Shown here one piece after another: positions 43,490 to 64,000 of a stretch of 64,000 nucleotides of DNA. The first letter of the stretch is position 1. Each line of letters opens with the position of its first letter. This DNA is from Nocardiopsis sp. CNR-923 (GTDB lineage Bacteria; Actinomycetota; Actinomycetes; Streptosporangiales; Streptosporangiaceae), in the NCBI RefSeq assembly GCF_001942255.1, contig NZ_MKKC01000065.1, positions 124,001 to 188,000 on the forward strand, given 5' to 3'. The notes below the pieces were generated by a model that worked only from the letters and a program-made list of their open reading frames with translations, ran no database searches and was not told the origin of the DNA. Position numbers and translations under genes: made by a program.

Positions 43490-43998
43490 CAGTTCCCGCG
43501 GTGCGCGGGACGACGCCCCGCGCGGTGAGCGCGGCGGCCACGACGACCACCGCCAGCGAGGCGGACGACGCCCCCACGACCGGGACCGCAGGGACCTCGG
43601 CGACCGGGGCCACCGCGGCGGAGGCGACCGCTCCCTCCGACGCGACGACAGGGACCGCGGCGGGTACCGCGGTCGGGATGACCGACGCCCGTACGGCCGC
43701 GACGACCGCGACTCCCGGGGCCCAAGCGGCGACCGGGGCGGCTTCGGTGGCCGGGAGCGGCGTGACGAGCGCGGTGAGCGGCGTTCGTTCGGCCGTGACG
43801 ATGATCGGGGCTCTCGGGGCTCTCGGGGCGACTACCGAGGCGGCCGAGATGACCGTGGGCGCGATGATTTCCGTGGTTCACGAAGCGATCGGGATTCGCG
43901 GGGTCCGCGCGAGGGTCGCGATGACCGAGGCCGCGGCGGTTTCCGGGGCGATCGTGACCAGGGCGGTTTCCGGGGCTCGCGTGCGGGTCGTGGCTACG
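43473..43998 (+). pseudogene. rluB: 5' fragment of rluB (23S rRNA pseudouridine synthase): only the Arg/Gly/Asp-rich extension remains
   Basis: GTG 43473 overlaps scpB, exactly where actinomycetes place rluB. The frame encodes about 175 residues of Arg-Gly-Asp low complexity (RGGYRGRDDRRPYGRDDRDSR; RGGFRGDRDQGGFRG), typical of the disordered N-terminal extension of actinobacterial RluB. It stops looking like RluB at RGYG, near 43996, where the sequence changes to the 3' end of a minus-strand gene. The S4 and catalytic domains are absent from the window. Identification rests on position and composition because no catalytic motif is left. Confidence 0.65.
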
Positions 43999-44821
43999 GT
44001 ACCTTGGCCCGTTCAAACACCTCCAGCAGTCGCATCTGGAGTTCGCGGTACCGGACGACCACACCGATCGTGCGGTTCGGATGGAGGCGGACGTGCTCGC
44101 GCAGCTCGGTCGTGAGCTCGCTGAACGTCCGATACCTGGCCATGACCGGGAGGGGCCCGTCCCGCTCCGGTAGAAGGGGGTCGGCCCCTCCCAGGCGGAA
44201 GTGCTCGGCCAGGTCGGCGATCGGCCGGGAGGTGCGGTGGTTCTCCGCCAGGCGGACCTCTTCGGCGGCCAGGACTCGCCGGATCTCGTCGGTGGTGCTC
44301 CTGGACTCGGTGATGGTCTGGTACTCGTCGGCCAGAACGGTCACCCGTGCTCCCGCCAGGCGGCACAGGCGGTAGAACCCCACCGGAAGGTCCTGGCCCT
44401 CGTCGACCACCAACGCTCCGATGGAGGGGAGCTCCCCGGCCCCCATCGCCTCGGTGAGCAGCGCGGGCCAGTCGAAGTCGAACCCTCCGGGCGTGTGGGT
44501 GGGCGGTCGCCCACCCACAGCGCGCTCGTACCAGGACCTCAGCCAGGAGTGGACGGTCGCCACCTTCACGTCCGGTCCCAGTTCACAGGTCGCCCGCGCC
44601 ACGTGCTGCCGCAGAAGGTTGGACCGGCACAGCAGGGTGGCCGGTGCGCCGGTGAGGGCGAGCATCGCCGCGCGATGCACCGCGATCACGCTTTTTCCCG
44701 ACCCCGGAGGGCCGCTCACCACGTGGTTGCCGTCGAACGGCAGGTCATGGAGTACCTCCTGCTGTCCGCTGGACAGGTCCAGGTACCTCAGGACTCCGGA
44801 TCGGGCCACCGCGGTGGTCAC
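43994..44821 (-). pseudogene. UvrD/Rep-like SF1 ATPase, C-terminally truncated, third gene of the drm-like operon
   Basis: GTG 44821 follows AAGGAGG and overlaps the drmB stop (GTGA). The 275 residues contain helicase motif I (GPPGSGKSVIAVHRAAM), motif Ia/Ib region (LLCRSNLLRQHVARA; VATVHSWLRSW), motif II (IGALVVDEGQDLPVGF), motif III (VTVLADEYQTI) and the start of domain 2 (RTIGVVVRYRELQ). It then ends AKVP-stop at the rluB junction. Motifs V and VI are missing, so helicase activity is unlikely. Related ATPases accompany defence helicases and methylases elsewhere. The cut falls within a few bases of the cut in rluB. Confidence 0.7.
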
Positions 44822-49600: not shown

Positions 49601-49881
49601 GGGCAGCCAGGCGTTGGCGTCGGAGGTGGGGTCCTCCGCGAACATGTTCTCCTCGGTGACGGGCTCGTCGCCGTCACCGTCCTTCTCCTCGCCCGCGGAG
49701 AGAAGGTGCGAATGCAGGTCGGCCTCCTGCGGATACAGCGTGCCCATGAGGTAGCGGCGGTCCGGGGGACGGAGAGCACCTCGTGCTCTCCGTTGGCCGG
49801 GCCGACGAGCTGGAGCCGGAGGGCGGACACGAGTAGGTCGCGGGCTTCGGCGGCGTCCTGCTTGGTGGAGCGGTCGGACAT
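46680..49881 (-). CDS. drmA: DrmA-like SF2 helicase (two apparent frameshifts)
   Basis: Read from ATG 49881 (SDRSTKQDAAEARDLLVSAL), repaired at two places, the product has about 1,067 residues. The first shift is in a G/C run at 49764-49768, before YLMGTLYPQEADLHSHLL. The second is near 48395-48408, between LLTTQQFQRA and NTVCALEYLRLRPAE. Walker A is VVWFPTGGGKTEAYLLLACFEM, the DExH box is SLVIQDELHLLTGPLGT, motif III is STATIR, and motif VI is QATSRVGRHRVPG. A zinc-knuckle insert (CPWCGTRI; CPREECDF) precedes the DExH box. In DISARM, DrmA is the translocase partner of DrmB. It is divergent from the sigma factor gene across 111 bases. Confidence 0.85.
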
Positions 49882-49992
49882 CAGGGGCCTGTTCTGGTTC
49901 GTGGGCGCCGGGCTTGCAGGGCCTGGGCGGTGATCCGTTCTCTCCTGGTGCGGGAACGTATTCTGTCAGGGGTCGGTGACATTATCCGACGC

Positions 49993-51549
49993 ATGCCGAA
50001 CTTCTCTCCCTCCCCGATGTCGGAGTCCGCCCGCCACGGCCTGGTGAACGCTGTGCTCGCGAGAATTCGGGCCAGTGCGGAGAACGGTGTGATGACTCGC
50101 GATAAACTCGAAAATGTGTGCGAAGAATTGGGTCTTGGGGAGGAAGTCCGCAGTCGGGTGGAGACGGTACTCCCCGGTCTGGGGATCCGTATAGCGGCTC
50201 CGGAGAAGGTGTCCAGGGGCGAAAGTCCCCAGTCTGCCGGCGGGATCACGGCAGCGGACCGGCGGCGCGTCCGCGATCCCCGAATGGCTGCGGTCGTGCG
50301 TCTGGCGCGGCGCTATGCCGCCGCCGGGTCGATCTCCGCCGCGGTGTTCGACGGTGTCGTCCGTATGTGCGGACTCGGCGGGAGCGAACTCGAAAAGTTA
50401 ACGAACTGCCTGCGCGAGGCCGGCATCTCGATCGCTCATTCGAATACTGGGGAAGACGCGGAACCCGAGGCGGGACCGGCGCCCGAGTCCGGCTCCGGGG
50501 AACACGAAATGGATGCCCCGTATAACTCGGAACCGGCAGACGCGGTCGCTCGTGTGAGAACGGTGCGGGAAACCACCGAGCTGGGCCCGTTCGTCGCGGA
50601 GGCCCGCCGGATCCTGGCCGAGGACCAGAAAAAGCGGCGTCCGGAACGGCGCATCCTCAGCGCACAGGCGGAGGTGGGCCTGGCGGCCCTGATGAGGGGC
50701 GGACAGTCCCTCGGCTCGCCCCTCGCGGAAGCCGGGCTCGCAGCGCTGGAACCGGCCGACGAGCGCCGCCTGGCCTATGAGGCGATGGTGCTGCACAACC
50801 AGAGACTCGTCTACAGCCTGGCGGCCAAGTTCGACGGACAGGGGCTGGACTACGAGGACCTGGCACAGCACGGCATGCGGGGCCTGATGCGCGCGGCCGT
50901 CAAGTTCGACGGGGGACAGGGCAACAAGTTCTCCACCTACGCCACCTGGTGGATCCGCCAGGCCATCACGCGCGCCATCGCCGACGAAGGGGCCCTGATC
51001 CGTCTTCCGGCGCACTTCCACGAGAAGGCGGTCAAGGTCGCGGTGGCTGAGCGTGAACTGGCCGCCCGGGGCAGGCGCACCGGTCAGGCGGACGTGGCGG
51101 TGCACAGCGGTCTGACGGTCGACGAGGTCGACCAGGTCCGCCGCCTCACCTACCGGACCGACTCCCTGGACCGCCAGGTGAGGGGGGACACCACCCTGCT
51201 CGCCCTGGTGGCTGAGGACGAGGACCGTGCCCTGCCCTCCCCGGAGGTCCAGGTCATAGAGGACGAGGGGTGCCGGGAGGTCCGGAACCTGCTCTCCTGC
51301 CTGACCGGCCACCGCGAGCGCGAGGTCATCGAACGGCGCATGGGATGGACCACGGGGGACAGACAGACCCTCGACGCGATCGGGGAGCATTTCGGGGTCA
51401 GCCGCGAACGCATCCGTCAGATCGAGAAGAAGGCCCTGCGGACTTTGCGCGAGGTCCACCTGGGCGGAGCGGGACAGGCCGAGGCGGGCGGGAAGGACAG
51501 GAAGAGGCGGCGCAAGAGGAGGTCAAGCGAGTCGGGGGCCACCGGATGA
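49993..51549 (+). CDS. Sigma-70 family RNA polymerase sigma factor with duplicated N-terminal module, defence-island encoded
   Basis: About 518 residues from ATG 49993. Region 2 (about residues 260-345) is complete: NQRLVYSLAAKFDGQGLDYEDLAQHG, the -10-melting segment KFSTYATWWIRQAITRAIAD, and LIRLPAHFHE. Region 3 follows, and region 4 (about 440-490) ends with the -35-binding helix LDAIGEHFGVSRERIRQIEKKALRTL. Ahead of it are two similar segments shaped like sigma region 1.1: VMTRDKLENVCEELGLGEEVRSRVETVLPGLGIRI and SISAAVFDGVVRMCGLGGSELEKLTNCLREAGISI. These may gate DNA binding. A basic tail ends the protein. A start at GTG 49930 is possible. It lies between drmA and pglX. Confidence 0.88.
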   Translation: MPNFSPSPMSESARHGLVNAVLARIRASAENGVMTRDKLENVCEELGLGEEVRSRVETVLPGLGIRIAAPEKVSRGESPQSAGGITAADRRRVRDPRMAAVVRLARRYAAAGSISAAVFDGVVRMCGLGGSELEKLTNCLREAGISIAHSNTGEDAEPEAGPAPESGSGEHEMDAPYNSEPADAVARVRTVRETTELGPFVAEARRILAEDQKKRRPERRILSAQAEVGLAALMRGGQSLGSPLAEAGLAALEPADERRLAYEAMVLHNQRLVYSLAAKFDGQGLDYEDLAQHGMRGLMRAAVKFDGGQGNKFSTYATWWIRQAITRAIADEGALIRLPAHFHEKAVKVAVAERELAARGRRTGQADVAVHSGLTVDEVDQVRRLTYRTDSLDRQVRGDTTLLALVAEDEDRALPSPEVQVIEDEGCREVRNLLSCLTGHREREVIERRMGWTTGDRQTLDAIGEHFGVSRERIRQIEKKALRTLREVHLGGAGQAEAGGKDRKRRRKRRSSESGATG

Positions 51550-51964
51550 GCCCCGGCCGCGGGCACGGCCGCGACGGCGCTGATCCTTGGTGTGCGGGCA
51601 AGCACCAGAGCGGCAACGCCCAGGTCCGGACCGGACGGTTGGCCGCCGTGGACCACGGGATCTGCGGGCGCGCGAGCGCGCTGCTGAAGAACGACAAGGC
51701 CCTGCGCAGGGCCTGCCTCGACCCCTGGCGGATCGGAGAGATCGAGATCCTCGGCAGACTCGGCAACGGGGCCTGGGCGTGCTCTACGCGGACCGCACCG
51801 ACGAGGACACGCCAACGCACGCTCAGGACCGGGCCCGTTTCGGCGGGCGGCCCCGGCGAGGCGGGAGAGGAGCCCATGTTGTCACCGTCTCCTCCGACAG
51901 GCCCAACCGCTCCAGGAACCCCTCGAAACGCCTGCGCGGCCATGACGAGTCAGGGGGGGCGTGA
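51546..51964 (+). CDS. Small ORF coupled to the sigma factor, 3' end uncertain
   Basis: ATG 51546 overlaps the sigma factor stop (ATGA). The first 75 residues look coding: TGRLAAVDHGICGRASALLKN, ALRRACLDPWRIGEIEILGRL. That frame then turns to Arg/Thr-rich sequence, while VLYADRTDEDTPTHAQDRARFGG continues well in the next frame from about 51770 to a stop at 51964, so one base is probably missing near 51770. Either way the 3' part overlaps the end of the convergent pglX gene. I do not recognise a family. Translational coupling suggests a partner of the sigma factor, perhaps a regulator; unproven. Confidence 0.4.
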
Positions 51965-54900
51965 ACGGGGCCGATACCCGCTCCGACCCGATCCACCCAG
52001 GGCAGCACCTCGGCCAGGCCCGCGAGCAGGGGAACGACGGCGTCCAACGCGGCGGTGGGGGGAGCCAGGTTGTCGTCGACGATGTCCACCAGCACACACG
52101 CGCGTTCATGGGCGTCCCATCCGGCCCATCCAAGCACGGTGGTCGGGGCGAGCACGGATGAGGTGCTCGGCGTGTAGGTGATGAACCGCTCGTTGGGTAG
52201 GTCGAACTTGCCGCGATTGGCCCAGTACTCGCTCCTGAGGAAGTCGGTCGACCTGTACTTCGGCGGCACCGGGAGCTGGTGCTCTCCCTTCCACTGAAGA
52301 TCCCACAGCCTCCTCCACTCGGCGTGCTTCTTCAGCCCCGAGGGACGCAGCCGGAGCGCCGTGAGGAAGGGGACGTGCTCCGGTCGCAGCAGTTCGGGCA
52401 GTACCGTGCGAGGACTGGATCCGGGGTTCAGGGCCTCCACGGCGGCGAGGACGTCCGGATCGTTTTCGAGCAGGCCGACCAACTCGGCCAGGGTTCGGCT
52501 GACGGGTCGTTCCGTGCCGTCCGCCCTCTTCGCGTACCAGAGTTCCCGGCGCTCGCAGCGGTCCAGCAGCCAGGAGGTGACGGCGGGTTGCCACACCTGC
52601 TCCCATGAGGGGGTGGTCCAACGGTGCTTGAAGTCCGGCCGTTCCAGAACCCCGAGGACGGGGTTGCCGTCGATGGCCGCGATCCGTTCCGACACCGTTC
52701 TCCGGTAGTCCGCGCTCCAGTGGTCGGGCGGTTCGGTGACCGGGTGTGCCGCGTGCCGGTGGAACCAGGCGCTCTTCTCGGCCCCGGAAGCCATGTCGGA
52801 GGCCAGAACGATCTCGAAGGCACGCTGCCCGATGGCGACGCCGTTGGGCAGCGCCTCAGGGGAGACCCGTGAAAGGCTTCCCTTGGGGATGAGTCCGTAC
52901 GCCTCGTACGTGCGCCAGTCCAGCTCCTCCTGCAACATCACCATGCGGTCGAGGGTGGCGCGCCACTCTCGACCCAGCGCGGTGATGCGGTCCTGTGCCG
53001 GCGTGCGCCCGGGGTCGCCGGCCTCGTCGCGTAGTTCCAGCAGGCGGCGCGCCAGGGCATCGAGTTCGCGGGGGAGTTCGGTCTCTCCTGCCTCGGGGAG
53101 GGGAAGGTCGCGCATCCGGGTCGCGGTGAACTCGTAGATGGTGTCCCAGCTGTCACCGGATCTGAGCTGCCCGTCCCGAGGGTTGCCCTTGGCGTTGCTG
53201 ACCTGTTTGAACCAGAAGCACGCGGTGGAGCTGTTGAGTACCCCGAGCAATTCCAGGACCTGGTTGTCGGTCACAGACGGGGGCAGTTCGATGACGGGTG
53301 CCGAGTTCAGCGGGGCGTTGGCATCCCGACGGAGCGCGAAGTGGGGGTGGGTCGCCACCCAGGGGAAGATGATCGACCACGGTGAGGCATCGTTGCTGAC
53401 CGTCAGCTGGTGCCAGTCGTACCAGGCCTTTCCCTTCGAGCGCAGGCGGTCCTCCAGGTGACTCCGGTAGGGCCAGAGCCGACGTTGGTGACCGGGGAAA
53501 CCCTGAATGCTCGCGACGCTGGCCGGATTCTCCCTGTCTCGTGGGAAGAAGGCCACCTGTTCACTGTGGACCTGCCAGTCGCGGACCTCGGATCCGGTGA
53601 CGAGGTCGATGGTCGCGGCCGGTTCGGCACCCCAACGTCGCATGGCGGCGTGGGAGGAGGCAAACAGGTCGTCAGCGCCGGTGCTGGCGACATAGCCGAT
53701 GCGATGGGCATGATCACTCAGCCGTCGGCGAGACCGCAGCGCTCGCAAGACCGTCTCGGTGTCCGGAGTGGCCAGGTTCCACGGGTGTTTGTGGTACTCC
53801 GCGAGAAGGCGGTCCTGGGACACCGTCCACGGGTCCTGACTGGGAATCTCGGCCAGGCGGTTCTGGATCGACACCCACACCTTGCCCCGAGCCGGATCGG
53901 CCGGAACGGAGGGTTCGCCGCGCAGGCCGCTGACCACAGTCACCCGCGATTGGGGGGTCGGCTGTCGATTGCGGCCGATGAGGATCAGGGTGGGTGTGCC
54001 GTGCCCGGGGATGTAGGCACCGGAGGTGTCGATGATGCGGTCCAGCTGCACGGTGGGGAGGAGCACTTCGACGAGGGGTTTGCCGAACTCCCGCTTGGTG
54101 AAGGAGGTCGCGAGCAGGAGACCGACGCGTCCGTCCGCACGGGCGAGGGAGAAGGCCCGCTCGGTGAAGGGCACGGTCATGGCGAAGGCCCCGGACCGGG
54201 CGCTGGGGTAGGCGCTGCGGTAGGCGTCGGCCTTGTCCTTGTCCCGGGGAACCAGGTACGGGGGGTTGCCCACCACGACGTCATAGGAGGAGCAACCGAG
54301 GACGTTCGCGGCCCTGGCCCAGAACGGCCAGGAGGACGCTGCCTCGAAGCGGTCGGTGAACGGGCCGGAGGGGGCGCCGTGCCCCTCCAGGAGCGAGTCC
54401 GCGCCGACCACGAGAATCGACCAGTGCTCCTCGTCGCCGGGCTCCGCCTCTTCGGCCAGCCCAATCGCTTCGATCGCCAGCCGGAAGCGGGCGACCATGG
54501 CCGCGAAGGGGTTGCGATCGGCACCGTGGACACAGGTGAGGGCACGGCCGACCGCTTCGCTCGGGGAGAGTTCGGGCTGCTCGGAGCGGATCCGCTCCAG
54601 GACCAGGGGAAGTGCCTTCACGAGGAAGCCGCCGGAGCCGCACGCCGGGTCGATGAGCCGGAATCCGTGTTCGGTGATGGGTGCGGAATCCCGTAGCGCG
54701 GGTTTCAGTGTCTCGTCCAGGAGCAGCTCGATGACGAAGTCCGGGGTGGTGAGAAGGGCGTCGTTCTTGCGCGAGTCCTCCGAGATGCCCTGGTACAGGC
54801 GGCCGAAGATCGTGGTGTCGAGTTCGGGGCCCTGGGGTGGGGTGTCCGGGGAGGCCGGTGCTCGCAGGGAGGGGCGGTCGGGGCCGCGCCAGTACGAGAC

Positions 54901-55290
54901 CAGTCTGCGGGCGATGCCGGGGGGGAGCCGATGCCTCCGCCACGGTTCGATGTCGTGCGGGAAGGCGGCGGCCAGGACAGGGTGTGCCTGGACCACTCGG
55001 TTGATGGCCAGTTCGATCGTTCGGAACGGATCCACGGATTCAGCGTCCGCCAGTGGCTCCGGTCGTTCGGGGGAACCGGGGGCCGGTACGTCCGTCCGGC
55101 TGAGCGATCTGTCGGACACGAGACCGTTGTCCTCACAGAACGTGACGAATGTTGTGGCAAGGGCCCACATTGCCGCGGAGTGTTCGCGCTCGCGCCACGT
55201 GGACGAGGAGGTGGGTGCTGAGCCTCGGAGGCCGTCGAGGGCACCCCACACGATGGATTGAAGTTCTCTCAGCAACGAGGTCTGGGTCAT
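51823..55290 (-). CDS. pglX: PglX-like (BREX-2) N6-adenine DNA methyltransferase
   Basis: About 1,155 residues from ATG 55290; an in-frame ATG at 55368 adds a Pro/Arg-rich stretch that looks non-native. SAM-binding motif I is IDPACGSGGFLVKAL at residues 213-227, and the adenine-specific catalytic motif IV is NPPY at 342-345. A target-recognition middle part follows. The C-terminus matches what I know of BREX-2 PglX: QRAFEIVLASDMASG, HPVTEPPDHWSADYRR, VPPKYRSTDFLRSEYWANRGKFDLPNERFITY and VLGWAGWDAHE. It presumably marks host DNA as self and may also act as a nuclease-methylase as proposed for Pgl. No frameshift over 3.4 kb. Divergent from the membrane peptide and pglW. Confidence 0.88.
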   Translation of the reverse strand: MTQTSLLRELQSIVWGALDGLRGSAPTSSSTWREREHSAAMWALATTFVTFCEDNGLVSDRSLSRTDVPAPGSPERPEPLADAESVDPFRTIELAINRVVQAHPVLAAAFPHDIEPWRRHRLPPGIARRLVSYWRGPDRPSLRAPASPDTPPQGPELDTTIFGRLYQGISEDSRKNDALLTTPDFVIELLLDETLKPALRDSAPITEHGFRLIDPACGSGGFLVKALPLVLERIRSEQPELSPSEAVGRALTCVHGADRNPFAAMVARFRLAIEAIGLAEEAEPGDEEHWSILVVGADSLLEGHGAPSGPFTDRFEAASSWPFWARAANVLGCSSYDVVVGNPPYLVPRDKDKADAYRSAYPSARSGAFAMTVPFTERAFSLARADGRVGLLLATSFTKREFGKPLVEVLLPTVQLDRIIDTSGAYIPGHGTPTLILIGRNRQPTPQSRVTVVSGLRGEPSVPADPARGKVWVSIQNRLAEIPSQDPWTVSQDRLLAEYHKHPWNLATPDTETVLRALRSRRRLSDHAHRIGYVASTGADDLFASSHAAMRRWGAEPAATIDLVTGSEVRDWQVHSEQVAFFPRDRENPASVASIQGFPGHQRRLWPYRSHLEDRLRSKGKAWYDWHQLTVSNDASPWSIIFPWVATHPHFALRRDANAPLNSAPVIELPPSVTDNQVLELLGVLNSSTACFWFKQVSNAKGNPRDGQLRSGDSWDTIYEFTATRMRDLPLPEAGETELPRELDALARRLLELRDEAGDPGRTPAQDRITALGREWRATLDRMVMLQEELDWRTYEAYGLIPKGSLSRVSPEALPNGVAIGQRAFEIVLASDMASGAEKSAWFHRHAAHPVTEPPDHWSADYRRTVSERIAAIDGNPVLGVLERPDFKHRWTTPSWEQVWQPAVTSWLLDRCERRELWYAKRADGTERPVSRTLAELVGLLENDPDVLAAVEALNPGSSPRTVLPELLRPEHVPFLTALRLRPSGLKKHAEWRRLWDLQWKGEHQLPVPPKYRSTDFLRSEYWANRGKFDLPNERFITYTPSTSSVLAPTTVLGWAGWDAHERACVLVDIVDDNLAPPTAALDAVVPLLAGLAEVLPWVDRVGAGIGPVHAPPDSSWPRRRFEGFLERLGLSEETVTTWAPLPPRRGRPPKRARS

Positions 55291-55540
55291 GCTCTGCCTA
55301 GCCGGTCGGGGGTCTTTCCTGCTCGGGCCGGTTCTTCTGTCTCCGGGGGACGATCGTGGCTTCTCCATGGCCAGTTTAATGGTTCATGTGCGTGCGATAA
55401 TTATTTGTGGGTGCTGAGAAGGATCGCTAGTCTGGTGCACACAAGCTCGAACGCGTGCCATGTCCCGCCCGTGCTGGCCGCGATGCGTCTCAGGACTTCA
55501 CGTTCCGTGATTTCGCCCCCCACGAAAGGTGCTGCGCCCC

Positions 55541-55744
55541 ATGTCCTCCAACTCCGTTGCGGTACTGGCCGCCGTGATCGCCATCGTTCTTGTCGCCGTA
55601 CTGGCCGCTCTGGTCGCCGCCTTCGTCAGCCGTGAAGGGGGCAACCCCTGGTTCACGGCGCTGCGCGCGAGTGGAGCGGCTCTGCTCGCCACCCTCGGAA
55701 CCGTCACCGCCATGGCGGCCTTCGTCTTCAGCGCGCTCGGGTGA
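55541..55744 (+). CDS. Two-helix small membrane protein upstream of pglW
   Basis: A 67-residue protein, mostly hydrophobic. Helix 1 is about residues 5-28 (VAVLAAVIAIVLVAVLAALV), a short polar loop (SREGGNPWFTALRASG) follows, and helix 2 is about residues 44-66 (ALLATLGTVTAMAAFVFSAL). ATG 55541 has AAAGG about 12 bases upstream. It lies between the divergent pglX and pglW and on the pglW strand, 156 bases ahead of it, so the two may share a transcript. I do not know the family. It could be a membrane anchor or effector for the defence genes; the sequence does not decide. Confidence 0.6.
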   Translation: MSSNSVAVLAAVIAIVLVAVLAALVAAFVSREGGNPWFTALRASGAALLATLGTVTAMAAFVFSALG

Positions 55745-55899
55745 CCCCCCCTTTCTCGGTTCCGGGGCCACCGAGTTCCGGAACCGAGGCGCGCTCGGGG
55801 CCGTCTCCGTGCCTTCGCTGTGACTGACACACCCGTCTTACGGGAGTCCTATGCTGGGAGGCCGGGCGGGCTGGCGCAGAACTGGAGAGGCGGACCCAG

Positions 55900-58800
55900 A
55901 TGGCGAACCGATGGTGGGGAAAGCCCTCGGAGTTCCCCTGGGAGCAGTCCGCTCTCGAACACGTCCGCGCGCACTTCCCCGACCGGGAGCCCTACCGGGC
56001 CTGGGCCGGGTTCACCTTCACCGCCCGCAACCAGCGCATCCGCGAGTGCGACCTGTTCGCCGTCACCCCCCGAGGGGTCTTCCTCGTCGAGATCAAGAGC
56101 CACCGGGGCCGGGCCGCCAACCACGGCAGCGAGTGGATCTTCACCAACGGGCACCGCAGGACCATCACCAACCCGTTGCATCTGACCGACCTCAAGGCCA
56201 AGGAGCTCAAGAGCCGCCTGCAGTGGGCGGTCGACAGGCTCGGCCTGCGCGGTGTGAGAGTCCCCTTCATCGAGGCCGGTGTGTTCCTCTCCGACGAGGG
56301 CCTGCGCTGCGACTTCGACGAGGTGCAGAAGGCCAAGGTCTACGGCCGCGAGGGGCTGGAGCACCAGACCTCACTGCCAGGCATCTGGAGCGGGCTCCTC
56401 GGCGCCCCGCACAGCCAGGTCGACCCCGGCTTCCTCAGGAACGTCTCCCGACTCATGGAGACGATCGGGGTCGTGCCCATGGACCGGGCGCTGACCCTGG
56501 GGGAGTACACCCTGGAGAAACGCTCCTTCGACAGCGGGCCCACCTGGACCGACTACCAGGCCGAGCACCAGCGGTTGGGCGGCACCAGCCGGGTGCGCCT
56601 CTACCACTACGGCGAGACCGACAGCGAGGACGAACGCCGGTCGGTCGAGCGCGCCGCCAAACGCGAGTACATGTCCCTGGAGGGCATCTCGCACGAGGGC
56701 ATCGTCAAGGCCGAGTACTTCGGGGTCATCGAGGAGTCGAGCAAGGACCTCGGCCCCGCGGTCGTCTTCCGGCACCACTCCTCCTGGCAGCGCCTGGACC
56801 ACTTCATGGCCGAGCACGGCCACGGCCTCGACGTGGACACGCGGATGGAGATGGTCCGCCAGCTCGCCGAGGCGGTCAACCACGCCCACCGCAACCGCCT
56901 CTACCACCGTGCCCTGGCCGCCCGCAGCGTGTGGGTGGAGATGGACGGCGCCTACCCGCGCCTGTACATCGCCGACTGGCAGGTCGCCTCCCGGGAGAGC
57001 CTGCGGCTGCGCGGCGGAGTGCACACCCGCCACACCTCCTCGCGCGCGGGCACCTCCCACCTGGAGGAGGTGCTGGGCGGGCGCGCGTTCGCCGCGCACG
57101 TCGAGAAGGCCGCCGAGGCCTACCTCGCCCCGGAGTTCCCCGACTACACGCGACGCGCCGCCCCCCAGGACATCTTCGGTCTCGGGGCGCTCACCTACCT
57201 GGTCTTCACCGGCCGGCCGCCGGGCCGCGACCGGAGCGAGCTGAGCCAGCAGATCCAGGAGCACGGCTGCCTGACCCCGGCGGCGATCAGCGACGACGTC
57301 GTGCCCCAACTCGACACGCTCGTGCGCGAGTCGACCCGGCGCTCCCCCAACGACCGGCTGGCCAACGTGCAGGCCTTCCTGCGCATGCTCGACCAGGTCG
57401 AGGAGTACCTCACCCTTCCCGAGACCATCACCGACCCCCTCGACGCCCGCCGCGGGGACGAGGTCGTCCAGGGCTGGAAGGTCCGCGAGGTTCTGGGCAA
57501 GGGGGCGACCGCCCGCGCTCTGCTCATGGCGCGCGACGGCCGCCCGGAGGAGGTCGTCTACAAGGTCGCCCTCAACCAGGAGTCCGCCGCCAAGGCCCTG
57601 CGGGCCGAGGCCGAGACCCTGCGCACCGTCGCCGGGAGCACCAGGATCGTGACGCTGGCCGCCACGGGCGACGAGAGCGCCTCCGGCGTCCTGGAGATCG
57701 GTGAGCGCACCATCCTGCCCCTGGAGCGGGCGGGGCAGAGCACCCTCGCCGACTACCTGTCCCGCCAGGGAGCCCTGGGCCCCGGCGAGCTGCTGGGCTT
57801 CGGGCGGCACCTGTTCGACGCGGTCGAGCACCTGGAGGAGCACGAGGTCTTCCACCGCGACGTCAAACCCGCCAACCTCGGCGTCCGGGAGACCCGCAAG
57901 CAGGGCAGGGCCCTGGTGCTGTTCGACTTCTCCCTGTCCCAGGCGTCCGTGGAGAGCGTCAGCGCGGGCACCCGCGGCTACCTCGACCCCTTCCTGGGGC
58001 AGGACCGCCCCTACGACGACGCGGCCGAGCGCTACGCGGTCGCCGTGACCCTGCACGAGATGGCCACCGGAGAGCTTCCGGTCTGGGACGACGACGGTGT
58101 GGGCCCGGAGTTCCTCGGCGACGACGTCGTGGTCCCCCGTCTGGCCGAAGAGGCCCTGCCCAAGCAGAGCCGCTCCGCCCTGGTGGCGTTCTTCCACCGG
58201 GCCCTGCACCGCGACCACCGCCAGCGCTTCGGCGCGTTGGCCGACATGCGCGACGCCTGGGAGTCCGCCTTCCGCTCCGGATCGGTCACCGACCAGGTCG
58301 AGGAGAGCGAGGAGACCCGGCTGCGCAACGCCGGGGCCGCCACGCTGGACACACCCCTGCACCTGGCCGGCCTCACACCGTTGGCGCTGGACGCGGCCCA
58401 GCGCCTCCTGCGCTGCGACAAGGTCGGAGACCTGCTCAGCAAACCGGTCCGGGAGATCACCCACATGCGCGGTGTCCCCCTGGCTGTCCGCAACGAGCTG
58501 CGCAAGAGGGCCTCCGAGTGGCGCAGGCGCCTGGACGTGGCCGAGTACGCGGTCGCGACCCGGGCCAAGCTGCCGGCCGGCGCGGGGGAGGACGTCAAAC
58601 GCAACGCCGTCCTGGACCAGGTGATCCGCCAGTTTCTCCCGACCACCACCGACGCCAACCGGCAGTGGGTGCGCGTGGTGCGGGAACTGGTCGGCATCCC
58701 GGAGGGGCGCAAGGGCCGCAAGCACTGGTGGCCCACCCGGCGCGAGGTCGCCCGCTCACTGGGGATCCCCCGCTCCCTGGTGGAGGAGAGCCTGCGCCAG

Positions 58801-60171
58801 GCGCACACCTACTGGAGCAAGAACGCCTCCCTGCTGGGATCGGTCCGCGACGACGTCGTGGACATCCTGTCCCGCAACGGCCGGGTGCGCGAGGTCGGAC
58901 AGATCGCCGCCGAACTCCTGACCCTGCGCGGCTCCTCCCTGGAGGGCGACGAACGCTCGGTCTACGCCCTGGCCGCCGTGCGCGTGGTCGCCGAGTACGA
59001 GGAACAGCGCGTCGAGCAGCGGTTCGTGGTCCGCAGGTACGACCGCAGGGTGCTGGCCGCGCGGGTGATCGACGACGACCCCCGCGTGCCGGTCGAGGGC
59101 GACCTGTTCGACTACGCCGAACTCCTCGGGCTGCGCGCCGACGAACTCGTCCGCCTCGGCGACGCCGACCTCCTGCCCAGCCCCACCGCGGTCAGGGAGG
59201 CGCTGCGCGCGGTCGACGCCCCCGAGGGCATGGAGCCGTTCACCGACACGGCGCTGGTGCAGATCGCGGCGGCGGCGTCCGGCAACGCCGAGGCCACTCC
59301 GCGCCTGGAGCTCTACCCGGCCGACCTGGACCTGGAGCGCGCCTTGCGGATCACGCAGGCCGTCGGCTACCTGGGCAAGCCCGGGATCACCCCGGAGCAG
59401 ATCCAGGACCGGGTCCGGTCGCGGTTCCCGGCGCTGCCCAGGCCCGACGAGAAGCGGCTGCGGGCGCTGCTCAAGCGTCGGCACCCCAAACTCCAGGAGA
59501 CTCCGGTCGGCGGCACCGTGTGCTGGTACCTGGAGCCGGAGGTCACCACCTACCAGCCCTCGACCCACACCGGACACCACGAGCCGGACCGGGTCGACGC
59601 CGCCTCGGTCCAGACGTGGGACCGCCTGGCGCGGGCCGTGGCCGGGGGCGGCTACCGGGCGGTCAAGACGTGGATGCCCGACACCGAGCGGGTGGCCCAC
59701 ACGCTGGGGCGGATGCCCGGTGTGGTGCCCTTCGACGCCTCCGCCGAGTTCGTCCACGTCGTCGACGAGGTCATGGACGGCATGGGAAGCGCCCTGAACT
59801 GGGACATCCTGAGCGAGGCCGACAACAGCCGCCCCGAGCCGTTCAACCGGATGCTCGCCGAGGTGTTCCGCCGCCTGGGGGACCGGGTGCGGGCGGCGGG
59901 GGCCGACGCGCCCTCCGGGCACGGCGTGGTCCTGCTCCACCGGGCGACCCCGCTGGCGCGCTACGAGCCGGGCCGCGCCCTGCTGGGCAGCCTCGTCCAG
60001 GAGGCCCGCGAGGCGAACCGCAGCCCGTACGGACTGTGGCTGCTGTGCCCGATGCGCGGACCGCAGGCCGTCGCCGCCCTGGACGGACGCTCCGCGGGCA
60101 TCATCGGCGAGTCCGAGCAGGTGCTGCTGCCCAGGGGGTTCTCCGCGCCCGAGGCGGCGTTGGCGCGCTGA
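55900..60171 (+). CDS. pglW: PglW-like NERD / Ser-Thr kinase protein of BREX-2/Pgl type
   Basis: A 1,423-residue cytoplasmic protein. Residues 1-110 form a NERD nuclease-like domain (WWGKPSEFPWEQSAL; Asp51 and Glu64-x-Lys66 in ECDLF...VEIKS). Residues 240-500 are a kinase fold in which the catalytic HRD is H336-R-A and the metal loop is ADWQ, so it is a likely pseudokinase. Residues 525-800 are a second kinase with Lys555 (VVYKVAL), His652-Arg-Asp654 (FHRDVKPANLGV) and DFS at 676-678. The remaining 600 residues are helical and unassigned, with a helix-hairpin-helix-like LLRCDKVGDLLSKPVREITHMRGVP. In Pgl, PglW is required for resistance and autophosphorylates. ATG follows GGAGAGG. Confidence 0.9.
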   Translation: MANRWWGKPSEFPWEQSALEHVRAHFPDREPYRAWAGFTFTARNQRIRECDLFAVTPRGVFLVEIKSHRGRAANHGSEWIFTNGHRRTITNPLHLTDLKAKELKSRLQWAVDRLGLRGVRVPFIEAGVFLSDEGLRCDFDEVQKAKVYGREGLEHQTSLPGIWSGLLGAPHSQVDPGFLRNVSRLMETIGVVPMDRALTLGEYTLEKRSFDSGPTWTDYQAEHQRLGGTSRVRLYHYGETDSEDERRSVERAAKREYMSLEGISHEGIVKAEYFGVIEESSKDLGPAVVFRHHSSWQRLDHFMAEHGHGLDVDTRMEMVRQLAEAVNHAHRNRLYHRALAARSVWVEMDGAYPRLYIADWQVASRESLRLRGGVHTRHTSSRAGTSHLEEVLGGRAFAAHVEKAAEAYLAPEFPDYTRRAAPQDIFGLGALTYLVFTGRPPGRDRSELSQQIQEHGCLTPAAISDDVVPQLDTLVRESTRRSPNDRLANVQAFLRMLDQVEEYLTLPETITDPLDARRGDEVVQGWKVREVLGKGATARALLMARDGRPEEVVYKVALNQESAAKALRAEAETLRTVAGSTRIVTLAATGDESASGVLEIGERTILPLERAGQSTLADYLSRQGALGPGELLGFGRHLFDAVEHLEEHEVFHRDVKPANLGVRETRKQGRALVLFDFSLSQASVESVSAGTRGYLDPFLGQDRPYDDAAERYAVAVTLHEMATGELPVWDDDGVGPEFLGDDVVVPRLAEEALPKQSRSALVAFFHRALHRDHRQRFGALADMRDAWESAFRSGSVTDQVEESEETRLRNAGAATLDTPLHLAGLTPLALDAAQRLLRCDKVGDLLSKPVREITHMRGVPLAVRNELRKRASEWRRRLDVAEYAVATRAKLPAGAGEDVKRNAVLDQVIRQFLPTTTDANRQWVRVVRELVGIPEGRKGRKHWWPTRREVARSLGIPRSLVEESLRQAHTYWSKNASLLGSVRDDVVDILSRNGRVREVGQIAAELLTLRGSSLEGDERSVYALAAVRVVAEYEEQRVEQRFVVRRYDRRVLAARVIDDDPRVPVEGDLFDYAELLGLRADELVRLGDADLLPSPTAVREALRAVDAPEGMEPFTDTALVQIAAAASGNAEATPRLELYPADLDLERALRITQAVGYLGKPGITPEQIQDRVRSRFPALPRPDEKRLRALLKRRHPKLQETPVGGTVCWYLEPEVTTYQPSTHTGHHEPDRVDAASVQTWDRLARAVAGGGYRAVKTWMPDTERVAHTLGRMPGVVPFDASAEFVHVVDEVMDGMGSALNWDILSEADNSRPEPFNRMLAEVFRRLGDRVRAAGADAPSGHGVVLLHRATPLARYEPGRALLGSLVQEAREANRSPYGLWLLCPMRGPQAVAALDGRSAGIIGESEQVLLPRGFSAPEAALAR

Positions 60172-60192: not shown

Positions 60193-60284
60193 TTCCTTCG
60201 AGGAGGGGCCGGCCGGGGCGCACTGCCGTGGAACGTGGAGTCGGGCCGGGACCGGGGGAACCGAACGTGTCCTCACCGGGCACG

Positions 60285-60618
60285 GCGGCCGGGTGCCCGC
60301 AGTGGCCTGGTCGCCCGCCCAGGCCGACTCCGTGCCATCGGTGACCAGGACGCTGTAGGAACCGGCCAGTGCCCCGAGCCGGTCGGCGCAGGTGGCGGTG
60401 TCGGGCGCGCTCGCCAGAAGCCGTTCGATGTGCGGCGTGGTGGCGAAGCACTCGCCCAGGAACACGGCCTGGCGGCGGTCGCTCCGGTGGATGCGCACCT
60501 GTTCGGCGGGCCAGGCGCCGCAGAGGTGGAGTTCGTGCCGCTCACCCGGCCCGGCGGAGGACGTTCGGGCGTTGTCGGGGGCCTTGGAGACGCCTGCGTA
60601 GTAGGACTGGGCAAACAC
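60285..60618 (-). pseudogene. Remnant of a lasso-peptide cyclase (asparagine-synthetase-like) gene
   Basis: GTG 60618 has AAGGAG seven bases upstream. The first 110 residues look like the N-terminal part of a lasso macrocyclase: FAQSYYAGVSKAPDN, LHLCGAWPAEQVRIHRSDRRQAVFLGEC and LGALAGSYSVLVTDGTESAWAGDQ. The frame stays open into pglW but loses coding character after about 60290 and becomes Pro/Arg-rich. The ATP-pyrophosphatase domain that closes the ring is missing, so the gene is inactive as given. It lies directly after the lasso precursor, the usual A-C order. Confidence 0.6.
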
Positions 60619-60669
60619 CGATACTCCTTCGGGGAGGCGGGTGCGGCCGGTCGGCCGCACCCGGTGGAC

Positions 60670-60816
60670 TCACCAGTAGCGGGAGGTGTTCATGTCGGCG
60701 GTGTCCTGAGAGCCGCTGCCCAGGACGACGTCTCGGACCTCGCCCAGGCAGGTGATGGTCGGCGGTTCGTAGACGGTCTCGACCATGGGCTGTGCGCCGG
60801 TGTCCTGTTCGGTCAC
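60670..60816 (-). CDS. Lasso peptide precursor
   Basis: A 48-residue peptide from GTG 60816, with GAGGAG upstream. The leader (1-32) contains the actinobacterial recognition pattern Y-x-x-P-x-(L/I)-x3-G as YEPPTITCLG, spaced correctly from the cleavage site. The residue at -2 is Val where Thr is usual. The predicted core is GSGSQDTADMNTSRYW (residues 33-48). Gly1 and Asp9 would close a nine-residue ring, leaving a seven-residue loop and tail with bulky Tyr and Trp as plugs. The gene is followed by a truncated cyclase, and no protease or leader-binding gene is in the window, so maturation would need enzymes from elsewhere. Confidence 0.7.
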   Translation of the reverse strand: MTEQDTGAQPMVETVYEPPTITCLGEVRDVVLGSGSQDTADMNTSRYW

Positions 60817-60869
60817 GGGCTTCTCCTCACAGGTAGGAATTGGCCTTCCGGTGCGCCGCACCGGCTGCA

Positions 60870-60892
60870 CTATTCCAGTAGTACAGGAATAG
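60870..60892 (+). promoter_or_regulatory. Palindromic operator 1 (lasso precursor side)
   Basis: Perfect 7-bp inverted repeat CTATTCC (60870-60876) and GGAATAG (60886-60892) with a nine-base spacer, 54 bases upstream of the lasso precursor start. A second, near-identical site lies 78 bases away on the side of the divergent regulator operon. Confidence 0.65.
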
Positions 60893-60947
60893 CCTGGGAT
60901 CGACAAGCGGTTTGGGAACTCTTCGTGGCGAGGGGGTGACAGGAGGT

Positions 60948-60970
60948 GCTATTCCATCCATACTGGAATC
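60948..60970 (+). promoter_or_regulatory. Palindromic operator 2 (regulator operon side)
   Basis: CTATTCC (60948-60954) and GGAATCT (60964-60970) with a nine-base spacer; five of seven arm positions pair. It has the same left arm and spacing as operator 1. It lies 26 bases before the ATG of the small regulator-operon protein, so it could control that operon. Confidence 0.6.
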
Positions 60971-60996
60971 TAAAGCAACCCCCGTGGAGGCAGCAG

Positions 60997-61200
60997 ATGA
61001 AGCTCACCCGAGTGGCTGGCGAATGTAGTAACAGGCGGTCCTGCCCCACCGTCTACGCCAGCGATCGCGACACGATCGTCGTGCAGGGCTACGCGCTCAC
61101 TCCCGAAGACCTCGCCGAGATCACCCTCCCCGAGGGCGAGAACGCCGTGGAGATCCCCCTGTCCCTGCTGAAGGAGGCCGCCCGTGCTCACGGAGTCTGA
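60997..61200 (+). CDS. Small conserved protein of the XRE/DUF6879 locus (copy 1)
   Basis: A 67-residue protein from ATG 60997 (MKLTRVAGECSNRRSCPTVYASD), behind GGAGG. The block CPTVYASDRDTIVVQGYALTPEDLAEI recurs in the protein at 63324-63518, so the two are paralogues. The family is common in actinomycetes next to DUF6879 genes; its function is unknown. It overlaps the DUF6879 gene by 17 bases and starts a three-gene operon ending in the XRE regulator. Confidence 0.8.
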   Translation: MKLTRVAGECSNRRSCPTVYASDRDTIVVQGYALTPEDLAEITLPEGENAVEIPLSLLKEAARAHGV

Positions 61201-61732
61201 ACTGGAGAAGTTCTTCGATGATCACCTGACTACGTCGGCTTTCCGTCTGGAAGCCCTGGACCACTACGAGGTCGACTCGGACGGGGACGACTTCACCAGG
61301 TTCAAGGCAGGCGAGCCCGAGCCCGACTGGGCGCGCAAGAACGCGTGGCTGGAGGTGCTGCGAGCGGAAGCGGAGGCCGGTATCCGTGAGTACCGGGTAC
61401 GGGTCCTGCGCACTCCGCTCAGTGACTACATCCGCTACGAGTGTGAGTGGGGATATGTGCTCAACGCTGAAGCGGGGGAGGAGGTCCATGTCCTGGATCT
61501 CGCCGAGCATGACCTTCCGCCGGAGGTGGTGGACCATGACTTCTGGCTGATCGACGACAAGTACCCCCTGCGCATGCACTACAGCGAGGCGGGTGAGTTC
61601 CTCGGCGCGGAGCTGGTCGATAACCTGAGGCGATACCAGAAGGCAAGGGACGCGGCGCTCGCTGCCGCCGAGCCGTTCGAGCGGTGGTGGGCGCGCCATC
61701 CCGAGGAGTGGAGAGTCAACCGGACTGTATGA
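61184..61732 (+). CDS. DUF6879-type protein (copy 1)
   Basis: A 182-residue acidic protein from GTG 61184, with AAGGAGG at 61171-61177. It has the pattern FFDDHLTTSAFRLEALDHYEV at the start, RVRVLRTPLSDYIRYECEWGYVLNAEAGEEV in the middle, and DHDFWLIDDKYPLRMHYSEAGEFLGAEL toward the end. The 63520 gene repeats this layout. No catalytic motif is evident. It overlaps the regulator that follows by ATGA. Confidence 0.8.
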   Translation: MLTESELEKFFDDHLTTSAFRLEALDHYEVDSDGDDFTRFKAGEPEPDWARKNAWLEVLRAEAEAGIREYRVRVLRTPLSDYIRYECEWGYVLNAEAGEEVHVLDLAEHDLPPEVVDHDFWLIDDKYPLRMHYSEAGEFLGAELVDNLRRYQKARDAALAAAEPFERWWARHPEEWRVNRTV

Positions 61733-62601
61733 CGGTTCCGCAGAACACCCCGGCCGGTCGCGGTGCCGAAGGCCGCGACCGGCTCGCCCGCGCGCTGCGC
61801 GACGCTCGTGCCGACGCTGGCCTCAGTGGAGTTCGCGCGGGGCGGGCGGCGGGGATGTCGCAGTCCAAGGTCTCCAAGATCGAACGCGGCCTCCTGCTGC
61901 CGTCGGTGGACGACGTGGCGGCGCTGTGCCGGGTCTACGGGCTTGAGGGCGATGAGCGCGCGGAACTGGTCGCCTTGGCCGGGGACCTGCGGGAGGAGGC
62001 ATCCAGCCGGGTGATCATGGCCCGGGGAGTCTCGCAGTTCCAGCGCCGTGTCGCTCAGTTGGAAGCCGACGCCGCGCGCGTGCGCTCATTCGATCCCGCC
62101 CTGGTTCTGGGGGTGTTGCAGACCCGCGAGTACACCCGCTGTATCTTCGATGACCCCCGTGACAAGGTTTCGGTGGAGGAAGCAGAAGCCGCCGTTGATG
62201 CCAGGCAGGAACGCCACAGGGCGCTGAGCGAGGGCAGGACCCGCTACGAACTGATCATGCCGGAAGGGGCCCTGCGCTGGCAGGTGGGCTCTGCCTCGAT
62301 CATGGCGGAACAGATCGAGCAGATCGCTGCTGCCGCGTCTCAAGGCGGGACGGCAGTAGTCGGCATCATTCCCTGGACGACGCCCGTGCACGTCTTTCCC
62401 GGCCATGCCTTCGACCTCTATGACGAGGACGCGGTTGTCGTGGCGACCGAGACGGCCACGGCGACCCTCACCGGTGCCGCTGACATCGCCACGTATCTGG
62501 AGCTGTTCGAGGAGTTGAAGAAGCTCGCCTGCTTCGGGGACGAGGCGGTTGGACACCTGAATCGGATCGCAGGGGAGTATCGGGGACTGGCTGACTCTTG
62601 A
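61729..62601 (+). CDS. XRE-family HTH regulator with DUF5753 domain
   Basis: A 290-residue protein from ATG 61729. The N-terminal helix-turn-helix is LARALRDARADAGLSGVRAGRAAGMSQSKVSKIERGLLLPS. The rest is DUF5753: VSQFQRRVAQLEADAARVRSFDPALVLGVLQTREYTRCIF, VDARQERHRALSEGRTRYELIMPEGALRW and YLELFEELKKLACFGDEA. Such regulators are usually paired with a DUF397 protein, and a DUF397 remnant lies just downstream on the other strand. It may bind the two palindromes upstream of its operon; untested. Confidence 0.9.
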   Translation: MTVPQNTPAGRGAEGRDRLARALRDARADAGLSGVRAGRAAGMSQSKVSKIERGLLLPSVDDVAALCRVYGLEGDERAELVALAGDLREEASSRVIMARGVSQFQRRVAQLEADAARVRSFDPALVLGVLQTREYTRCIFDDPRDKVSVEEAEAAVDARQERHRALSEGRTRYELIMPEGALRWQVGSASIMAEQIEQIAAAASQGGTAVVGIIPWTTPVHVFPGHAFDLYDEDAVVVATETATATLTGAADIATYLELFEELKKLACFGDEAVGHLNRIAGEYRGLADS

Positions 62602-62658
62602 CTCGACGCCCCGGCCCCGCGTGTTCGGGGCGGGGCGACGACCGGATGAGGAGAGGGC

Positions 62659-62850: not shown

Positions 62851-62865
62851 TACACAGTCCGGGCC

Positions 62866-63138
62866 CTGGCGGCGGACCAGACACAGGCCGACGCCTCTAC
62901 GCGCCGCGTCCGCAGTGACGGCGGCGAACTCCTCACCCTTTTGCGCGCGATCCGCCGCGAGAGCGGAGGACCCCGGCGCACCGTCCTGGTCGTCGACCAA
63001 CTGGAGGAACTGGTCACCCTCAGCGGCGACCGCGACGTCTTCCTCGACGCCCTGCACGGCGACCGCCACCTGGGGGTGGTGGCCACCCTGCGTGTGGAGT
63101 TCCTCGGCGACCTGCTGGGCGGAAAGGTGCACGGATGA
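62866..63138 (+). pseudogene. Fragment of a STAND-like NTPase
   Basis: About 90 residues with SDGGELLTLLRAIRRESGG, a Walker B-like strand RTVLVVDQLEELVTL, and DRHLGVVATLRVEFLGDLL. This is the Walker B to sensor stretch of WD40-associated or novel STAND ATPases (consensus LVVDQFEEL). No P-loop or repeat domain flanks it. It is a decayed piece left between the DUF397 remnant and the second small-protein gene. Confidence 0.5.
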
Positions 63139-63323
63139 GCCGCCTTTCGACGAGGGACGTGAAGGCCGGGGTGGGATTCCTTCGACCCCAGGACCGGCAC
63201 TTCCGCCGAACCCGCAGGTTGCTCGGAATTGCTCGCGCGGCCTGGGGGAAGGCCTGGCGCCTGTCCTGCGACGCCGGGGAGACTGGACCTCCCCGTTCCC
63301 TCGGAGAGGATGCCCCCACGAGG
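63139..63323. other. Short stretch without a supported gene
   Basis: Between the ATPase fragment and the second small-protein gene. A GTG-started frame from 63135 runs through, but its first 60 residues are Arg-rich and unlike relatives of the downstream gene. A GGAGAGG at 63303-63309 probably serves the next gene. Confidence 0.4.
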
Positions 63324-63518
63324 TTGCACAAGATAGGGACCACGTCTCAGAACGGTGGTTGTCCCACGCTGTACGAGACCGACACCGGTGACATCGTGGT
63401 GCAGGGTGACCGGCTGACCGACCCCGAGGCTCTGGAACAGGTGAAGGATGTGCTTGAGGGCGAGGAGTTCGTCGTCGTTCCCCGCGCTCTGTTGACACGC
63501 TTCGCCCCCAAGGAGTGA
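63324..63518 (+). CDS. Small conserved protein of the DUF6879 locus (copy 2)
   Basis: Paralogue of the 60997 gene: LHKIGTTSQNGGCPTLYETDTGDIVVQGDRLTDPEAL aligns with it through CPTxYxxDxxxxVVQG. About 65 residues. No ATG or GTG is well placed. TTG 63324 is possible, and the codon two before it is ACG where an ATG would fit, so the start may have mutated. GGAGAGG lies upstream. Four bases after the stop is the DUF6879 start, with AAGGAG at the end of this gene. Confidence 0.6.
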   Translation: MHKIGTTSQNGGCPTLYETDTGDIVVQGDRLTDPEALEQVKDVLEGEEFVVVPRALLTRFAPKE

Positions 63519-63519
63519 G

Positions 63520-64000
63520 ATGAGCGAGATCATCAGCGGAGAGGCCTTCGACGACCTCTTCCGGCGTTACCGCCACACCGCGTGGCGGCTGGAGACCCGC
63601 TCCTACTACGGCAAGCTCGACGAGGACCGCCCCTTCCAGGACTGGCTCGCGGGTAAGGATCCGGGCCTGGACTGGTTCACCCCCTGGCTGCGTATGGTGC
63701 GCGAGGAGTCGACCACCGGTAAGCGCATGGAGCGGGTCCGGCTCATCGACGACCCGCCCTCGGACTACCTGCGCTGGAAACTGTGGGGTACCCCCTACAA
63801 CCTTGGCGTGGGGGAGGACATCCGCTATCTGCCGCGCGAGCACCCGATCGTCGCGGAGCTGCCCGACTTCGACTTCTGGGTCTTCGACAGCACCACTCTG
63901 GCCCGCCTGGAGTTCGACGGCGACCGGTTTCTCGGGGTGCGGCTCACTGAGGACCCCGGCCAGGTCCTGGCGGCGCTCCGGGCCCGGGACGCGGCCTGGC
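63520..64000 (+). CDS. DUF6879-type protein (copy 2), cut by window end
   Basis: ATG 63520 follows AAGGAG. The first 160 residues (EAFDDLFRRYRHTAWRLETRSYY, MERVRLIDDPPSDYLRWKLWGTPYNLGVGEDIRYL, DFDFWVFDSTTLARLEFDG) match the layout of the DUF6879 protein at 61184. The 3' end lies beyond the window. An XRE regulator would be expected next if the locus is duplicated in full. Confidence 0.8.
   Translation, partial: MSEIISGEAFDDLFRRYRHTAWRLETRSYYGKLDEDRPFQDWLAGKDPGLDWFTPWLRMVREESTTGKRMERVRLIDDPPSDYLRWKLWGTPYNLGVGEDIRYLPREHPIVAELPDFDFWVFDSTTLARLEFDGDRFLGVRLTEDPGQVLAALRARDAAW

Follow-up and report, generated by a model that had tools for sequence, protein, structure and literature searches.

A lassimiditide-type lasso precursor gene beside a truncated cyclase gene in Nocardiopsis sp. 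CNR-923, probably the remnant of a decayed cluster

The 64,000-nucleotide stretch of Nocardiopsis sp. CNR-923 analysed here (contig NZ_MKKC01000065.1, positions 124,001 to 188,000; hereafter the window) contains a short open reading frame on the reverse strand, at 60670-60816, which on the evidence of its sequence is a genuine lasso peptide precursor gene of the lassimiditide kind. The locus in which it lies is very probably what is left of a decayed lassimiditide cluster: the precursor is intact, and the enzyme genes have presumably been lost by deletion.

The reading frame comprises 48 codons and a stop, starts with GTG at 60816, and has, by eye, a GGAG stretch immediately 5' of the start. 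Its translation consists of a leader of 32 amino acids ending in EVRDVVL (VYEPPTITCLGEVRDVVL), with Val at position -2, and the core GSGSQDTADMNTSRYW, with DTAD at core positions 6-9. The precursor is matched by the NCBIfam model NF033521 (lasso_leader_L3) at 19.9 bits (curated cut-off 19) and scores 13.6 bits with the albusnodin model NF033525 (cut-off 30); a Pfam search of it gave no match. In an alignment of 10 members, the Y, P and L-G of the YEPP...G motif in the leader are invariant, and so are Gly1, Asp6, Thr7, Ala8, Asp9, Asn11 and Tyr15 of the core, position 16 being W, Y or N. The invariance of Gly1 and Asp9 is consistent with the Gly1-Asp9 macrolactam ring proposed in an initial annotation of this stretch, which had also placed the precursor exactly and read Val at -2 correctly.

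Precursor matches (E ≤ 0.001) were found in 23 of the 298 genomes of the family and in 9 of the 40 genomes of the genus, the window's own genome included in both counts. Enzyme queries were run against the own loci and against regions of 10-17 kb fetched around each of the 22 other precursors. DTAD is present at core 6-9 in 14 of the 23 precursors, including that of the window, and absent from nine. Matches to the cyclase, B2 and the PIMT homologue lie behind the precursor in 12 of the 14 DTAD loci, the exceptions being the window and L041, while the non-DTAD loci have cyclase and B2 matches in all nine cases and a PIMT match in none. Because it has homologues across the family, with enzymes behind 12 of the 14 DTAD precursors, the precursor is far beyond chance; the occurrence of such homologues beside lasso enzymes in other genomes was also a point on which the initial annotation had made its own reading depend. 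The motif WxxxGxP, in the finer form WR-x2-G-(R/H/C)-P, is found in all 12 cluster PIMTs. The enzymes of one cluster (L038) are identified by Pfam as an Asn_synthase cyclase, lasso_biosyn_B2, PCMT and GNAT, and by NCBIfam as well except for GNAT; the B1 of L037 is PqqD-type by Pfam and NCBIfam. The GNAT gene (L038:4206-4829, reverse strand) stands immediately behind the PIMT gene of this DTAD lasso cluster. In L046 and L045 the cyclase frame is apparently broken in the deposited sequence, by real decay or sequencing error.

A search of named genomes gave 10 precursor loci, six of them in Nocardiopsis and the others in Thermobifida cellulosilytica TB100, Allosalinactinospora lopnorensis, a Kutzneria metagenome-assembled genome and a Frankia; the T. 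cellulosilytica TB100 locus is one of the 12 DTAD loci with cyclase, B2 and PIMT. Among 394 genomes of the class, 12 matches were obtained in 11 genomes, the own genome included. DTAD is present in L111, L112 (the same precursor as L082) and L120, and absent from L113, L114 and L116-L119; L115 is G033, already among the nine non-DTAD loci, and L110 is G086.

According to PMC13001092, the lassimiditide group has two characterised members, cellulonodin-2 (from T. cellulosilytica) and lihuanodin, which share DTAD at core 6-9; Asp9 serves in ring closure and Asp6 as the site of modification by a PIMT homologue, the cellulonodin-2 methyltransferase requires the whole lasso, and WxxxGxP is common to the methyltransferases of the group. 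In PMC10787088, 67 such clusters are counted, one group of them with DTAD, and both papers take D(T/S)AD at core positions 6-9 as the mark of lassimiditide group 1. The window precursor is assigned to the lassimiditide kind because of its DTAD, the invariant core residues and the WxxxGxP-bearing PIMTs in the clusters of its relatives. The initial annotation had not recognised the core. Neither the complete core nor any of four DTAD core segments of 6 and 7 residues brought up a paper in a literature search that reached neither figures, supplements nor the primary papers; the group itself is known and had been overlooked. The predicted monoisotopic neutral masses are 1756.71 Da for the lasso and 1738.70 Da with the aspartimide. 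The earlier expectation of a product at the core mass minus 18 Da holds for a peptide that skips the methyltransferase step; since the core belongs to the DTAD lassimiditides, the fully modified mass would be the core minus 36 Da.

What is left behind the precursor, on the same strand, is a cyclase 5' fragment of about 105 codons (~60618-60304). It is matched weakly by the macrolactam cyclase model NF033561 (21.9 bits, cut-off 300) and more clearly by the cyclase N-termini of the relatives (47% over 76 aa at best; best E 8e-20). Within the window locus no match was obtained to the rest of the cyclase, to B2 or to PIMT, which bears out the initial annotation in its description of a broken adjacent maturation gene and an orphaned precursor. 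Two congeners, G280 (L137) and G151 (L138), have DNA 93-94% identical to the window up to 60220, and neither gave a precursor match in the genus search. The similarity resumes in L137 at 63116-64988 (95%), and in L138 only from 66908 (82%). Between these flanks L137 has about 14 kb of other genes, including an nSTAND1-WD40 gene, and the window has a WD40 scrap, the cyclase fragment, the precursor, the palindromes described below, a regulator trio, a DUF397 gene and an nSTAND scrap. The WD40 scrap is 65 bases long (60253-60317) and its end overlaps that of the cyclase fragment; the end of pglW, the scrap and the end of the cyclase all fall within about 150 bases. The two nSTAND1-WD40 scraps lie in reversed order relative to L137, which implies more than one event. 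The G+C content is 66.8% in the block 60318-62650 as against 72.3% in pglW.

Table 1. Features of the precursor locus and its flanks in the window
Feature	Coordinates	Strand	Evidence or remark
Lasso precursor gene	60670..60816	-	Open reading frame, NF033521, family homologues
Leader peptide, 32 aa, YEPP...G motif, Val(-2)	60721..60816	-	Translation, NF033521, alignment
Core GSGSQDTADMNTSRYW, DTAD at core 6-9	60673..60720	-	Translation, alignment; motif per PMC13001092
Cyclase 5' fragment, ~105 codons	60304..60618	-	NF033561 (weak), relatives' N-termini
nSTAND1-WD40 scrap, 94% to L137:12957-13022	60253..60317	+	DNA similarity
pglW (BREX/Pgl kinase), left neighbour	55900..60171	+	DNA similarity to congeners to 60220
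Operator-like palindrome ATTCC-N9-GGAAT, precursor side	60872..60890	.	
Operator-like palindrome ATTCC-N9-GGAAT, regulator side	60951..60969	.	
Small conserved gene (MKLT...), first of trio	60997..61200	+	No Pfam or NCBIfam match
DUF6879 gene, second of trio	61184..61732	+	Pfam, relatives
Helix-turn-helix (XRE)-DUF5753 regulator, third of trio	61729..62601	+	Start by eye
Second nSTAND1-WD40 scrap (5' part), 87% to L137:10276-10557	62859..63122	+	DNA similarity

The left flank of the locus is a defence island (43997-60171) with matches to DrmA and DrmB (DISARM), PglX and PglW, of mixed DISARM/Pgl make-up.

The regulator trio (a small protein, a DUF6879 protein and an XRE-DUF5753 protein) is divergent from the precursor in the window, and its XRE protein is 32-40% identical to those of the relatives. 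Of the 13 other DTAD loci, nine (L037-L044, L048) carry a matching trio directly upstream of the precursor and on the same strand; L045 has an XRE match only, L046 and L049 have no trio match, and in L047 there is only a distant XRE match, on the strand opposite to the precursor. The palindrome ATTCC-N9-GGAAT occurs twice in the window, both times in the intergenic region shared by precursor and trio (0.02 expected by shuffling), and one of the two fits the stricter pattern used on the relatives. TATTC(C/T)-N19-(G/A)GAATA occurs exactly twice in each of seven loci (L038-L043, L048), one copy preceding the trio and the other beginning 81-93 bases ahead of the precursor, and the Thermobifida-type loci L044 and L045 have one such palindrome each, with N6 spacing. 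All 16 palindrome matches in the relatives are upstream of a trio or a precursor. The XRE protein may therefore bind the palindromes and thereby control both itself and the precursor. The palindromes tie the trio to lassimiditide clusters, and would form a common and probably dedicated operator, which is a modest new observation. Next to this trio, at 63135-64000 and continuing in L014, stands another one, again made up of a small protein, a DUF6879 protein and an XRE-type protein, with 95% DNA identity to L137; no DTAD precursor was found near it in the own-genome search.

Taken together, an intact cluster of this kind would operate as follows. The precursor would be under the control of the XRE-DUF5753 trio, acting at the TATTCC/GGAATA operators; B1 would bind the precursor through the YxxP leader; B2 would cut after position -1, tolerating any of the beta-branched residues Thr, Ile and Val in position -2; the cyclase would close Gly1 to Asp9 around the tail; and the PIMT homologue would methylate Asp6, upon which Asp6-Thr7 would collapse to an aspartimide. 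At the window locus B1, B2, the methyltransferase and most of the cyclase are missing, and the precursor, the cyclase 5' end, the operators and the regulators remain. The peptide, if made at all, is probably made only as an unmodified linear precursor. We infer the lasso chemistry, the operator function and the absence of a product alike; as a product the peptide probably does not exist, and its interest is that of one more core for the lassimiditide group.

Position -2 is occupied by Thr in seven of the 14 DTAD precursors, by Ile in six and by Val in one (the window), and four further DTAD precursors (L080, L082, L111, L120) have Thr. Three of the six Ile(-2) precursors (L039-L041) have an identical core. 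In a tree of 11 cyclases (leaving out L046 for its short frame and the two orphans, whose cyclases are incomplete), two sister pairs, L038/L042 and L043/L048, each join an Ile(-2) locus to a Thr(-2) locus. Duan and others (PMC10368454) report that a natural Ile(-2) precursor (BsfA-type, from Bradymonas sediminis) is processed, and list Ile/Val(-2) precursors in silico, the clusters of which all encode a kinase or phosphotransferase. As Ile and Thr vary at -2 across the DTAD group and processing of an Ile(-2) precursor is known, Val(-2) should not be taken as a sign of damage, and its interpretation as a mark of decay was rejected; nor is it the oddity that the initial annotation had seen in it, Ile replacing Thr in six of the 13 other DTAD precursors. 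Thr(-2) is usual in lasso precursors, and to judge from these counts it is not defining for the DTAD group. Ile and Val at -2 thus occur in methyltransferase-type lasso clusters as well as in the clusters with kinases described in PMC10368454, and the interchange of Ile and Thr between sister clusters points to a labile -2 residue, a modest new observation.

Of the alternatives to a decayed cluster, it is unlikely that the precursor is alive, with lasso enzymes encoded at another site of the genome maturing it in trans. The assembly (5.55 Mb in 152 contigs, 91.27% complete) leaves some room for this, and the precursor and palindromes are intact. The single B2 match of the genome lies on a 7-kb contig, C2 (L013), which also holds the 3' part of a cyclase (NF033561, 365.8 bits, cut-off 300) and a GNAT gene. 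The C2 system is, however, albusnodin-type: the matching 5' part of its cyclase is at the end of contig C79 (L121), where it follows a 37-residue peptide that scores 42.4 bits with the albusnodin model NF033525 (cut-off 30). The C79 and C2 ends run into one 97-base sequence, which is also present at the ends of C54 (twice), C107, C152 and, at 94%, C87, and the 8-base repeat GACCATCG is found at both junctions. This cyclase is apparently split by an insertion sequence. The albusnodin-type cluster has upstream of it a small gene of MRLT type and a gene that is XRE-like.

The window fragment and the C2 part were considered as two halves of one cyclase, and this was rejected: the window fragment covers residues ~1-105, the C2 part starts at about model position 229, and the N-terminal half belonging to C2 is located on C79. 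The other Asn_synthase proteins of the genome (on C152, on C78 and in two C108 frames) have their best score with asparagine synthase, though without reaching its cut-off, and fall well short of the thresholds of the two lasso cyclase models. The assembly yielded neither the 3' part of another cyclase, one of lassimiditide type, nor a complete lasso enzyme set, B1 not having been searched genome-wide. The whole-genome check proposed in the initial annotation thus yields one B2, on C2, and lasso-type cyclases that are only split or partial; the precursor is an orphan as that annotation held, but the rescue in trans that it allowed for seems unlikely on this assembly, since in the only other lasso system found the cyclase is split. 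No replacement methyltransferase was recognised either, the best 8 of the 23 own PCMT matches separating in a tree from the 12 cluster PIMTs with support 100/100 and thus falling outside the lassimiditide branch. One PIMT homologue of the genome (L006, on C23) lies beside genes that by eye look LanC- and LanB-type, perhaps a lanthipeptide cluster with aspartimide-type tailoring.

It is also quite unlikely that the truncation is an artefact of the assembly and that the strain has an intact cluster. The assembly is fragmented and a repeat breaks several contigs, but the break in question lies about 184 kb into a 230-kb contig, away from the contig ends. The tight packing of the scar, the similarity of the left flank to two congeners and of the right flank to L137, and the failure to find a second lassimiditide-type cyclase 3' part in the assembly all argue for a real rearrangement.

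The second orphan locus, L041 (G271, Nocardiopsis sp. N85), has the same anatomy as the window: the trio, two palindromes, the precursor and about 150 cyclase codons are kept, after which the similarity to L039 and L040 ends. The enzyme queries gave no cyclase, B2 or PIMT match behind its precursor, and the two B2 matches of G271 sit on other contigs. A literature search for orphan lasso precursors treated as pseudogenes brought up no paper. It may be argued that in these two Nocardiopsis-type genomes the precursor, the operators and the XRE-DUF5753 trio were purposely retained after the loss of the enzymes, the peptide either being matured in trans or serving in unmodified form as a regulated peptide; this we consider very unlikely. 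A new role for the retained precursor, as an unmodified, operator-controlled small peptide, is exceedingly improbable, for although both orphans keep precursor, trio and palindromes, there is no sign of selection after orphaning, two losses are simpler, and both also keep the cyclase 5' end, as decay predicts.

Several points weigh against the interpretation of the locus as a decayed cluster. Enzymes may lie in the sequence missing from the incomplete and fragmented assembly; the locus has kept an open precursor frame and two intact palindromes, something not required of a long-dead relic; and the leader score is barely above its cut-off. No palindrome was found in four of the 13 other DTAD loci (L037, L046, L047, L049). 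The PIMT tree carries a long-branch warning and covers the best 8 of the 23 PCMT matches. It was made because the motif test was not clean, three of these eight containing W-x3-G-x-P (WVANGEP, WKGRGEP, WQGLGSP), none of them in the form found in the 12 clusters.

Among known systems, the closest comparison is with the source organism of cellulonodin-2. The DTAD precursor of T. cellulosilytica (core GAADDDTADMNTAKYY, L044/L081), which from organism, motif and cluster is presumably the cellulonodin-2 precursor, is 48% identical to that of the window over 40 aa, and the two share DTAD at core 6-9, Gly1, a 16-residue core, Tyr15 and the YxxP leader. Lihuanodin, from Lihuaxuella thermophila, is alike in DTAD at core 6-9 by its published description. 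The window differs from the T. cellulosilytica system in that its locus is without B1, B2, the methyltransferase and most of the cyclase, in having Val rather than Thr at -2, and in the divergent arrangement of precursor and regulator trio. The DTAD precursors of same-genus genomes (L038-L042, L046, L047, L049) have leader and core motif in common with the window; in contrast to it, cyclase, B2 and PIMT matches are present in seven of these eight loci (L041 being the orphan), and in L038-L042 the trio and palindromes lie upstream as in the window but with the trio on the strand of the precursor. Albusnodin-type clusters have a precursor family different from that of the window, although one lassimiditide cyclase, that of L038 (306.1 bits, cut-off 300), also passes their cyclase model NF033561; that of L039 (258.3 bits) does not. 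The BsfA-type precursors resemble that of the window in the aliphatic beta-branched residue replacing Thr at -2, and differ in that the window-related clusters, in which kinases were not searched for, encode a PIMT homologue.
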